The translations under genes were made by a program, and so were the position numbers. Below are positions 14,976-18,426 of a stretch of DNA of 24,860 nt, in pieces (position 1 is the first letter of the stretch; the number at the start of each line of letters is the position of its first letter). The notes under the pieces are model-generated. The model had not been told where the DNA came from, searched no databases, and saw nothing but the letters and a program-made list of their open reading frames with translations. Source of the DNA: a virus; the IMG/VR virus record IMGVR_UViG_3300007538_000167, positions 1-24,860 of that record; one strand, 5' to 3'.

Positions 14976-15206
14976 TTGAGCGACCAGGTTAACCACCCAG
15001 ATCATTATACAAAAGGAGGAATTGAATGTATCCAAGCCATGGAAGCAGCGATGTCTCCAGAGGCTTTTCGGGGTTACTGTAAAGGAAATGTGCTCAAGTA
15101 TCTGTGGCGGTACGAATCGAAAGGTAGTACCGTTCAAGATTTATTAAAAGCTCAGTGGTATTTAGAACGTCTAATCAGAATAGAAACAGATAAAGTTGAC
15201 TCATAA
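14976..15206 (+). CDS. DUF3310-type small protein, TTG start, 76 aa
   Basis: The protein reads MSDQVNHPDHYTKGGIECIQAMEAAM, then FRGYCKGNVLKYLWRYESKGSTVQDLLKAQWYLERL. The NHPDHY-x-x-GGIE-x-I and GN-x-x-KY-x-WR-x-x-(x)K-G elements define the DUF3310 family, common in phages and sometimes labelled nucleotide kinase without strong proof. No ATG is in frame near the motif, and TTG at 14976 is the only start that keeps NHPDHY. It overlaps the end of the convergent 15201 gene by 6 bases. Probably acts in nucleotide or DNA metabolism (inference from family company). Confidence 0.8.
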   Translation: MSDQVNHPDHYTKGGIECIQAMEAAMSPEAFRGYCKGNVLKYLWRYESKGSTVQDLLKAQWYLERLIRIETDKVDS

Positions 15207-16055
15207 AAGTTCTCTTTGATTCTTATACTGCTCTTCAAATTTCTGAATACATGCAGCCTCTTCCTGAGCACGAAGCCACTCAGCCTCCTGGAGTTCCAAC
15301 TCTTTCTCCAGAGGAATTTGACTGCTTACGAATCTTAGAGTTTCTAGATCTTTTAGATCAGCTTCAAGGAAAGCAGACCGCGATCCCATACAAGTCGGAC
15401 GCTCCGTCCACAAAGTAAAAAATTTATCAACAACTTTACCTGATGGGTCGTATTTAAGTAGTTCTTTCTCCAGGTATTCAATAGCTTTCACCTGCTGAGG
15501 TGAGCCATTAAATGTCGTAGCAATATTAAGAAGGCAGCGATCTAACTTACATTTATGCTCAACTAAAAGAGAAACTTCTTTATCAACATCAAGAAAGACA
15601 TCAAGTTCTGCTCTTCTCCTGGCGACTAATCCTGGATTACTAAGGTAATTCTTCCTAAGAAAAGGCGACCATTCTCGTATAATTTCAGAACGCCTGGCGC
15701 CAGTATTAATTAATTCAAGTAGTTTGCATACTTTGAATTGAACAAAGCCAATGCTATGTGCATAACTAAGAACAGCAGCTTTCTTCTTTTCATTTAATGG
15801 TATGTAAACTACATCGTCTACATACTGTGCAAACAATTCTAGATCTTCTCTTAACTGTTGATCAACAACTTCTCTACTTACTCTTAAGTTTGCAAGAATC
15901 CCTTTTCCTTTTAAGCGGATGCTTCCATAACCAATGGCATATAATCCGTCTCTCTCATTTACTTTATAAGATGCGTATTCTTCAAAACCAGTATGAATCC
16001 TGCACGGTGTGTAGCGCCGTACCAATTCATATCCCAGCTCAGTAAAAAATGACAA
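15201..16055 (-). CDS. divergent lysozyme-fold (GH24-like) protein, 284 aa
   Basis: Residues 22-160 follow the T4-type lysozyme pattern: GFEEYASYKVNERDGLYAIGYGSI, then REDLELFAQYVDDVVYIPLNEKKKAAVLSYAHSIG and GLVARRRAELDVFL. Aligned without gaps to the endolysin at 18913, the catalytic Glu is kept (Glu 25) and the second residue is Glu 34. The catalytic Thr is Ala 40 and the Gly-His becomes Gly-Ser. The last 120 residues are helical, with a Glu-rich coiled coil. The start is TTG at 16055 after a hairpin. It may be a structural or virion-associated lysozyme relative rather than the lysis enzyme. The fold call is by motif. Confidence 0.65.
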   Translation of the reverse strand: MSFFTELGYELVRRYTPCRIHTGFEEYASYKVNERDGLYAIGYGSIRLKGKGILANLRVSREVVDQQLREDLELFAQYVDDVVYIPLNEKKKAAVLSYAHSIGFVQFKVCKLLELINTGARRSEIIREWSPFLRKNYLSNPGLVARRRAELDVFLDVDKEVSLLVEHKCKLDRCLLNIATTFNGSPQQVKAIEYLEKELLKYDPSGKVVDKFFTLWTERPTCMGSRSAFLEADLKDLETLRFVSSQIPLEKELELQEAEWLRAQEEAACIQKFEEQYKNQRELL

Positions 16056-16080: not shown

Positions 16081-16467
16081 TCAGGGAACAACCACTGATC
16101 CGTTATAACTGATTTCACTGTAAGCGTCATCAGTGGTTAACAGAACCAGATAGTTCTTACTAGCGTTTGTAACGGTCACAGCAACAGCGCCTTTCCCGCG
16201 ACCTGCTTTGGCAATATCAAAGAACTTTTGATAGCCAGTAGGAGCAGAACCTGCAGTATAGTCGTCGTCTTGGAAAATCTCAACAGTGTTGATACCATTG
16301 CTACGATCAAACGTAACAATTAAATTACCAGTAGAAGAAGGGTTTACAAGAAACGCACGCTGACTGAGATCGCCTGTAGAACCAGGCAGTGCATCACCTT
16401 GATAGGTAATCTCAGCACCACTGGCAGTGAAAGTATCTTGGGTTCCTTGGAAAGTGCGGGTAGCCAT
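16081..16467 (-). CDS. beta-rich virion-like protein, 128 aa
   Basis: The protein MATRTFQGTQDTFTASGAEITYQ... is built from short alternating strands rich in Thr, Ser, Gly and Val (LIVTFDRSNGINTVEIFQDDDYT, AVAVTVTNASKNYLVLLTTDD), without helices, Cys or charged clusters. This is the usual look of phage tail, decoration or fibre-tip proteins. It starts 3 bases after the NblA-like stop on the same strand. A small decoration or tail protein is the best guess from composition and neighbours; no family assigned. Confidence 0.55.
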   Translation of the reverse strand: MATRTFQGTQDTFTASGAEITYQGDALPGSTGDLSQRAFLVNPSSTGNLIVTFDRSNGINTVEIFQDDDYTAGSAPTGYQKFFDIAKAGRGKGAVAVTVTNASKNYLVLLTTDDAYSEISYNGSVVVP

Positions 16468-16469
16468 TA

Positions 16470-16691
16470 TCAGCTAATTTGGTTTTGAGTTTGAAACTGG
16501 AATGAGATGTCGGCATCAATACCGTGTTCCTTGAGAATGCTTAAGAACATTTGTCGATCCATCATTTTCATGTGGAGCATATCAACAAAAGCTTCTTCTA
16601 GCTCATCACGGTCAAGGTCTTTGATTGCCAGAGCTGCTGCATGGATAGCAAATTCACTGTCCATGGGCAGATCCAAGGCATTGGCATCCAT
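16470..16691 (-). CDS. nblA: NblA-like phycobilisome degradation adaptor, 73 aa
   Basis: The ATG at 16691 is chosen over a TTG 15 bases upstream. The protein begins MDANALDLPMDSEFAIHAAA and continues LAIKDLDRDELEEAFVDMLH, then MKMMDRQMFLSILKEHGI. Against cyanobacterial NblA as I recall it (L-T-x-E-Q-E-F near the start, M-S-R-E-Q in the middle, then E-L-Y-R-Q-M-M-V-R-E-N-M-Y), the EF, the loop with D-R-D-E-L, the ML-x-x-K-M-M-x-R-x-M-F stretch and helix lengths all match. NblA dimers bring phycobiliproteins to Clp protease, and phage copies are known in freshwater and marine cyanophages. Here it lies in the late minus operon, after the Dps-like gene. Divergent enough that function needs proof. 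Confidence 0.7.
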   Translation of the reverse strand: MDANALDLPMDSEFAIHAAALAIKDLDRDELEEAFVDMLHMKMMDRQMFLSILKEHGIDADISFQFQTQNQIS

Positions 16692-16745
16692 TGAAAAACT
16701 TACCAATCCGTGTCTACATCCTAACAGCTCTGCAATTTTTGGCTA

Positions 16746-16949
16746 CTAGGCCATTGCAGTTTGGATGCCAGGTGGGATGTATCGCTGATCAACAGCGAAA
16801 TGAGGCTTATCTTCAGCGCCTTCAAAAATACCGGGAGCGACTTGAGGTAAGCGTGCGCTCACGTACTGATTTAAAAAGGAGTTCGTGTCTGGCGTTTCCA
16901 TGGAGAATAGTGTTGCTAAGAGTAGTAATACCGAAATAGACGCTAACAA
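16746..16949 (-). CDS. membrane-anchored small protein with FLxxY segment, 67 aa
   Basis: The minus frame from TTG at 16949 gives MLASISVLLLLATLFS, a hydrophobic stretch like a membrane anchor or signal segment, then METPDTNSFLNQYVSARLPQVAPGIFEGAEDKPHFAVDQRYIPPGIQ. An ATG at 16901 would skip the anchor. The part after the anchor resembles the FLxxY segments of the 7525 and 14647 proteins. Another minus frame, ATG at 16971 (2 bases after the Dps stop) to 16822, also encodes a hydrophobic start (MLTLILVFVSVYFGITTLSN), so which frame is used is open. No family is recognised. Confidence 0.45.
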   Translation of the reverse strand: MLASISVLLLLATLFSMETPDTNSFLNQYVSARLPQVAPGIFEGAEDKPHFAVDQRYIPPGIQTAMA

Positions 16950-16973
16950 AAACCAAGATAAGCGTTAACATAA

Positions 16974-17432
16974 CTAGCCCAGATTAGATTTGAGCAGCCA
17001 CTGAAACTTTTTGTGCGCCCGCCCACGTTCTATAGCTAAGTCTAAAGTCAACTGATCTTTCATGGCTTCTGCTTCTTCTGCCAGAAGGTTAAAAGATTCT
17101 GCAAGTGTATTATTGTTTACCGCCAGGGTACGAATCATCCCGTCTTGATCAAAGCAGTTTGTTGGAACTTCTTCAATCATGGAGTGGTTTAGATCTTCAA
17201 CGCTTAGTGGAGTACTAATATCAAGAGAGCGGATGTGTTCTGCAATAACATCCAAACCATCCTGTAGTTCCTCATAGATCTCTTGAGTAAGCTTATGGAT
17301 AGAATAAAACTTGCTGCCCATCAGATTCCAATGAACAATATAAGTTTGATTCAGCAGATAAGAAGTATCACGCAGCAGCTGCACCAGATGGCAGTAACAA
17401 GCTGACTTGGGATCCATTTTTACTTTAGCCAT
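16974..17432 (-). CDS. dps: Dps-like ferritin (DNA protection in starvation), 152 aa
   Basis: The ATG at 17432 lies 2 bases after the upstream stop; a GTG 9 bases earlier is possible. The core reads YIVHWNLMGSKFYSIHKLTQ then EIYEELQDGLDVIAEHI. With this start, His 34, His 46, Asp 61 and Glu 65 have the same spacing as the E. coli Dps ferroxidase residues His 51, His 63, Asp 78 and Glu 82. The Trp after the first His is kept, and Asp 67 of E. coli is a Gln. Length fits a Dps four-helix bundle. Dps dodecamers oxidise and store iron with peroxide and can coat DNA. The Lys-containing start (MAKVKMDPK) is short. Phage role, protection against oxidative damage or use of iron, is inference. Confidence 0.85.
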   Translation of the reverse strand: MAKVKMDPKSACYCHLVQLLRDTSYLLNQTYIVHWNLMGSKFYSIHKLTQEIYEELQDGLDVIAEHIRSLDISTPLSVEDLNHSMIEEVPTNCFDQDGMIRTLAVNNNTLAESFNLLAEEAEAMKDQLTLDLAIERGRAHKKFQWLLKSNLG

Positions 17433-17434
17433 TT

Positions 17435-17722
17435 TTACCACTTAACTTTGTGACTCCAGTAGCGAGCTGACATCTTATCCGGATTAGGATCTTGGGCGTT
17501 ATGTCTAGCATAGTATGACTTTTTACGCGCTTTATCTTTCTCTGTTGTTGGATTCTTTCCAGCTCCTTTAACTCCTTGTTGACCGAAACGTACAATCTTT
17601 TCTTTACCTCCTTCACAAGCTTTGACTACATGTGACTTGGTGGGGTGCCCTGGAGTGCGCTGCGGTTTATTGCACTTCATGTGCTCTTTAGCTAACCGCT
17701 TAGCCTTCGCGTGATCTGCCAT
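17435..17722 (-). CDS. conserved basic protein of cyanophage type, 95 aa
   Basis: The protein is very basic: KCNKPQRTPGHPTKSHVVKACEGGKEKIVRFGQQGVKGAGKNPTTEKDKARKKSYYARHNAQD ... KMSARYWSHKVKW. The RFGQQGV-x-GAGKNP-x-T and (A/S)-x-YW-x-x-KVKW elements are ones I recall from a small protein present in many cyanophages. Function is not known. The charge suggests binding to DNA or RNA, and two Cys are present. The start overlaps the stop of the upstream 58-residue gene by one base (TAATG), and its stop is 2 bases before the Dps start. Confidence 0.75.
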   Translation of the reverse strand: MADHAKAKRLAKEHMKCNKPQRTPGHPTKSHVVKACEGGKEKIVRFGQQGVKGAGKNPTTEKDKARKKSYYARHNAQDPNPDKMSARYWSHKVKW

Positions 17723-18343: not shown

Positions 18344-18426
18344 GGGAGCGTGGCGGAATTGGTATGCGCTGCGGACTTAAAATCCGCTGGTCCTTGACCT
18401 TGTGGGTTCGAGTCCCACCGCTCCTA
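18344..18426 (+). tRNA. tRNA-Leu (anticodon UAA)
   Basis: Acceptor GGGAGCG (18344-18350) pairs with CGCTCCT (18419-18425), with one G-T pair. The D arm is GCG ... CGC. The anticodon stem GCGGA/TCCGC has loop CTTAAAA (anticodon TAA). There is a long variable arm typical of tRNA-Leu, and the T arm is GTGGG-TTCGAGT-CCCAC. The discriminator base is A, and no CCA is encoded. It is uninterrupted. It runs against the surrounding minus operon and abuts the stop of the 18427 gene. A weak promoter-like TTTACA-N16-TAGGGT lies at 18279-18306. Confidence 0.9.

Follow-up and report, generated by a model that had tools for sequence, protein, structure and literature searches.

The window, the whole stretch of 24,860 bases of a virus record that was analysed, holds between positions 15201 and 20151 a run of minus-strand genes that is unbroken except for one plus-strand tRNA-Leu. 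Read from 20151 downward, the run encodes an endolysin, two small proteins, an HNH protein, a further small protein, a phrog_7595 protein (17435..17722, minus strand; 107 bits against phrog_7595) whose gene overlaps the start of Dps, the Dps mini-ferritin itself, small frames, an NblA-like protein (hereafter NblA-1), a 128-aa protein (S128; 16081..16467, minus strand), and a lysozyme (15201..16055, minus strand; PF00959, 54 bits) with which it ends at 15201. S128 lies 2 bp downstream of NblA-1, is found at the same position in most relatives, and matches no Pfam family above cut-off. The tRNA-Leu (taa; 18344-18426, plus strand) is antisense to the genes around it and is flanked by the HNH gene and the small gene that follows.

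Sequence comparison places the window phage in the lineage of Synechococcus phage S-EIV1, in agreement with an earlier reading of the sequence alone that had taken it for a cyanophage. The terminase gene falls outside the window, and the evidence comes from that of a relative, G004, which is 64% identical to the S-EIV1 terminase, the next matches reaching at most 27%. Within the window, the primase (35%), the exonuclease (43%), the phrog_7595 protein (52%), and the HNH protein (43%) match S-EIV1, as do other proteins. Two relatives, G016 and G017, carry psbA, that of G017 (the only one compared) being closest to Prochlorococcus; because psbA can be swapped, the host of these two phages is uncertain.

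The Dps gene

The minus-strand gene at 16974..17441 (155 aa, GTG start) is by its sequence a genuine Dps, as the sequence-only reading had proposed. It scores 49.3 bits against PF00210 (cut-off 24.5) and 85 bits against phrog_3636, its nearest solved structures are HP-NAP (1ji4) and other Dps, and the ferroxidase ligands H37, H49, D64, and E68 are invariant in 51/51 phage copies and also in 30 cyanobacterial ones. The best cyanobacterial relatives of the window protein are only about 31-37% identical to it. In the tree, the phage copies form a single clade of their own (98/96), beside which the S-EIV1 Dps emerges on a very long branch; that of S-SRM01 is also long. The median pN/pS is 0.26, indicating purifying selection.

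Dps-family ferritins are known in other phages, namely S-EIV1 (where Dps already appears in the phage's own annotation), S-SRM01, Bacteroides 'Gratiaviridae', and Lactobacillus phages, and a protection from oxidative stress has already been proposed for gut-phage Dps (PMC8008677). The window protein differs from these by its low identity to the S-EIV1 Dps (26%), its separate clade, and its NblA neighbour. It would most likely oxidise and store free Fe(II), limiting hydroxyl radicals in the infected photosynthetic cell. Dps proteins can also bind DNA, and the gene sits in a lysis/virion region, which would fit a protein that compacts or protects phage or host DNA rather than handling iron and peroxide. 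However, all four ferroxidase ligands are invariant and the window protein does not have a long Lys-rich N-terminal tail, which makes such a role very improbable.

Homology of NblA-1 to NblA

NblA-1 (16470..16691, minus strand) is a distant homologue of the proteolysis adaptor NblA. Its 73 aa are read from an ATG at 16691, which is the conserved start and is internal to the frame as first given (16470-16706, minus strand, with a TTG at 16706). The NblA-like identity suggested from the sequence alone was borne out as a distant one, visible from family profiles only and never from a single sequence. Searches with the single protein found no match in Pfam, PHROGs, or phage records, the comparison with PF04485 gave none at E<=1, and the NblA-1 genes of several relatives score about 13-20 bits against this family, below its cut-off of 25 but still in favour of a relationship. 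Among 22,167 open reading frames, the sole match outside the family was the NblA of Ma-LMM01 (E = 0.14, weak on its own), and this protein used as a query against the genome contigs found no match.

A search of viral contigs recovered 74 NblA-1 relatives, 20 of which were used to build a profile (A1). In a blind search of 177,635 PDB sequences, A1 ranked the NblA structures 3cs5 (1.3e-6) and 1ojh (0.0027) first. In 194 cyanobacterial genomes, its seven best matches all overlapped independently obtained PF04485 loci, one of which itself scores below the PF04485 cut-off. Comparison of the NblA-1 family with cyanobacterial NblA by hhalign gave a probability of 87% (E = 4e-6), and the similarity covers the whole NblA helix hairpin. 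A structure model (pLDDT 76) likewise predicts a two-helix hairpin (helices 10-23 and 28-55); a PDB fold search with this model returned nothing significant, which is uninformative for a hairpin of 73 aa. NblA-1 is under strong purifying selection: the median pN/pS is 0.20 over 62 relatives, and the six close relatives that were listed gave 0.03-0.06. From the profile matches, the hhalign comparison, the hairpin model, and the selection, we therefore call NblA-1 a distant NblA homologue, and not a certified member of PF04485.

Along with the profile homology, NblA-1 shares with cyanobacterial NblA (PF04485; 3cs5, 1ojh) its size, its helix hairpin, and a C-terminal I/L-L-K. The residues I52-L53-K54 are invariant in the 20 members of A1 and align to the L-L-K of NblA, a phycobilisome-binding motif (L51/K53 of Anabaena NblA). 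Where NblA has 'LxLEQxF', the region of its N-terminal ClpC-binding motif, NblA-1 reads 'LDLPMDSEF', a partial match. NblA-1 differs from the cyanobacterial proteins in its score below the Pfam cut-off, in two conserved motifs, HA.A and HGIDA, and in having its own C-terminal tail.

Phage nblA genes are known from freshwater and marine cyanophages, and some of their products were active in tests (PMC9602691, PMC4103541). Like those of Ma-LMM01, PaV-LD, S-SCSM1, S-TIM5, and marine cyanopodoviruses, which are often distant homologues, NblA-1 is phage-borne, and it most likely acts in the same way, as a small helix hairpin docking onto subunits of the phycobilisome. It would pass these to the host ClpC/ClpP protease, and the breakdown of the phycobilisome would free amino acids and reduce light capture. 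Three observations count against an antenna role: the score below the Pfam cut-off; the retention of NblA-1 in G016 and G017, given their Prochlorococcus-like psbA and the fact that Prochlorococcus has no phycobilisomes; and the gene's position beside the lysozyme, whereas the nblA of Ma-LMM01 is early and lies in a nucleotide-metabolism region. NblA-1 might instead have kept the NblA fold for another target, as a Clp adaptor for a different host protein or as a lysis or virion component. Its retention in the two psbA carriers and its fixed linkage to S128 and the lysozyme, together with its position next to a lysozyme in S-EIV1 too, would agree with this, and a second NblA-like gene (see below) could do the antenna work. 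Nevertheless, we find this alternative doubtful, since similarity to NblA extends over the whole hairpin, the C-terminal I-L-K is kept, and distant NblA proteins from freshwater phages and marine viral metagenomes have been reported to be active when expressed (PMC9602691).

Gene order around Dps and NblA-1

In the window, about 0.28 kb separate the end of Dps from the start of the NblA frame, both on the same strand. The sequence-only reading had placed one small membrane-protein frame in this gap. Such a frame exists (16822..16971, minus strand), but it overlaps, in another frame, a second one that encodes a soluble protein (about 16746..16901, minus strand; about 51 aa, '..SFLNxYV..RLP..FxVDQRxxP'), recognised by tblastn and cluster conservation. 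The soluble frame usually sits immediately upstream of NblA-1, is more widely conserved than the membrane-like one, and has a median pN/pS of 0.45 (45 relatives). The membrane-like frame resembles by eye the c26 family of relatives, and its pN/pS of 0.60 (five relatives) argues weakly for coding. Both overlapping frames (16746-16971) occur in some relatives, the soluble one alone being widespread. A reading of the small middle frame as PsbN holds for G017 alone and not for the window: in G017, which also carries psbA, a PsbN-like protein (L068:7484-7747, plus strand; PF02468, 29 bits against a cut-off of 25) lies between Dps and NblA-1.

A scan of viral contigs provided 55 non-duplicate ones in which Dps and NblA-1 lie within 8 kb of each other; these are fragments, and since several represent near-identical, partly redundant populations, they should not be taken as 55 independent events. 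Dps is upstream of NblA-1 on the same strand in all 55, and the two are at most 3 kb apart in 49. The neighbourhood thus recurs in relatives and is not unique to this genome. However, uninterrupted same-strand contact is not kept: in 29 of the 55 contigs a reverse-strand 2OG-Fe(II) oxygenase (PF13640; for example L101:6840-7631, minus strand) fills the slot between the two genes, often accompanied by one or two virion-like proteins of 115 aa. The remaining 26 are the window's own clade together with L068/G017. The distance from NblA-1 to the downstream lysozyme is near-constant (396-524 bp in contigs holding both), and that from Dps to the upstream phrog_7595 gene is 0-67 bp in most relatives. 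No Dps was found in L072 and L073, where the phrog_7595 gene, the oxygenase, and NblA-1 are present, and the 74 kb contig of G016 (L066) keeps NblA-1 with no match to PF00210. S-EIV1 belongs to the same lineage and has homologues of Dps, NblA-1, and the second NblA-like protein. Unlike in the window, its Dps (18.6 kb, minus strand, beside sulfate adenylyltransferase) and its NblA-1 homologue (73.9 kb, plus strand, directly after a lysozyme) lie on opposite strands with about 24 kb between them.

The simplest reading of these data is a variable slot with a conserved block on either side, and the direct contact of Dps and NblA-1 in the window is a local arrangement. This suggests, as far as gene order can tell, two useful genes in one neighbourhood and not one dedicated cassette. 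The locus is probably a lysis/virion region of an S-EIV1-lineage cyanophage that houses two separately placed host-takeover genes, NblA-1 and Dps, which are neighbours because each belongs to a conserved block and the two blocks adjoin within a single same-strand region; the slot between the blocks would be variable, and most relatives have the oxygenase and virion-like genes there. The observation of the shared neighbourhood was confirmed, and its reading as a cassette was partly supported. A co-selected cassette, in which the dismantling of the antenna by NblA releases iron and ROS and a co-transcribed Dps buffers them, would account for the constant order and strand (55/55, with 49 within 3 kb), for the conservation of both genes under purifying selection, and for the presence of both, though unlinked, in S-EIV1. 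Yet we regard it as unlikely, in view of the intervening oxygenase in 29 contigs, the relatives without Dps, the separation in S-EIV1, and the tighter linkage of each gene to another partner (NblA-1 to S128 and the lysozyme, Dps to the phrog_7595 gene). No terminator-like sites were predicted between Dps and NblA-1 in the window, in a scan that was near chance; promoter and terminator scans were both close to the shuffled expectation.

The analysis establishes which genes these are, their homology and catalytic residues, the selection on them, the lineage, and the synteny, and we infer antenna degradation, protection from iron and ROS, and the timing of expression. A functional coupling, in which antenna breakdown would generate ROS that Dps buffers, may likewise exist.

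A second NblA-like family in the S-EIV1 lineage

Sub-threshold PF04485 matches elsewhere in the relatives belong to another family of about 80 aa, NblA-2 (G001:12754-12996, minus strand; S-EIV1 KJ410740 27768-27986, plus strand; L320-L335), identified by its NblA-like profile. This profile has just three matches in the PDB at E<=10, all of them NblA (2q8v, 2qdo, and 1ojh; E from 0.007 to 0.3), and its two best matches in cyanobacterial genomes are PF04485 loci. It also matches the annotated NblA of S-SCSM1 (3e-5), a phage protein that thus resembles the second NblA of phages bearing NblA-1. Since a direct comparison of the NblA-1 and NblA-2 profiles was negative, the two look like separate NblA types and not recent copies.

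A search of 31 metagenomic records found NblA-2 in 17; S-EIV1 has it as well, and so do most of the long relatives. Phages of this lineage carry one, usually two, divergent NblA-like genes. In G001 and S-EIV1, NblA-2 stands alone in the replication region, facing against the genes on either side. One could imagine an antenna takeover in two steps by two different NblA adaptors, with the adjacent Dps taking the iron and peroxide load: NblA-2 would perhaps act early, and NblA-1, in the lysis region, would perhaps act late or pair up in a heterodimer as NblA1/NblA2 of Synechocystis do; we consider this scenario improbable.

Both NblA-like genes of S-EIV1 are annotated as hypothetical proteins, and a survey recording nblA for other groups of cyanophages gave the S-EIV1 group only hli and ptoX (PMC5332604, Table 2). 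The literature examined contained no mention of nblA for this lineage, although the original S-EIV1 paper may say more. The single paper that combined nblA, Dps, and phage in a text search concerned the radiation resistance of Arthrospira. Single-protein annotation misses such divergent NblA-like genes. Their presence in this lineage enlarges the range of viruses that might cause bleaching of cyanobacteria, a question open to testing because S-EIV1 is available as an isolate.

NblA-2 was not found in the long contigs of the psbA carriers G016 and G017; it is present in 10 of 11 other contigs of at least 58 kb, small numbers counted irrespective of relatedness. G001 has a Dps and an NblA-1 that share 99-100% identity with those of the window, and its NblA-2 falls slightly past the position that matches the window edge.
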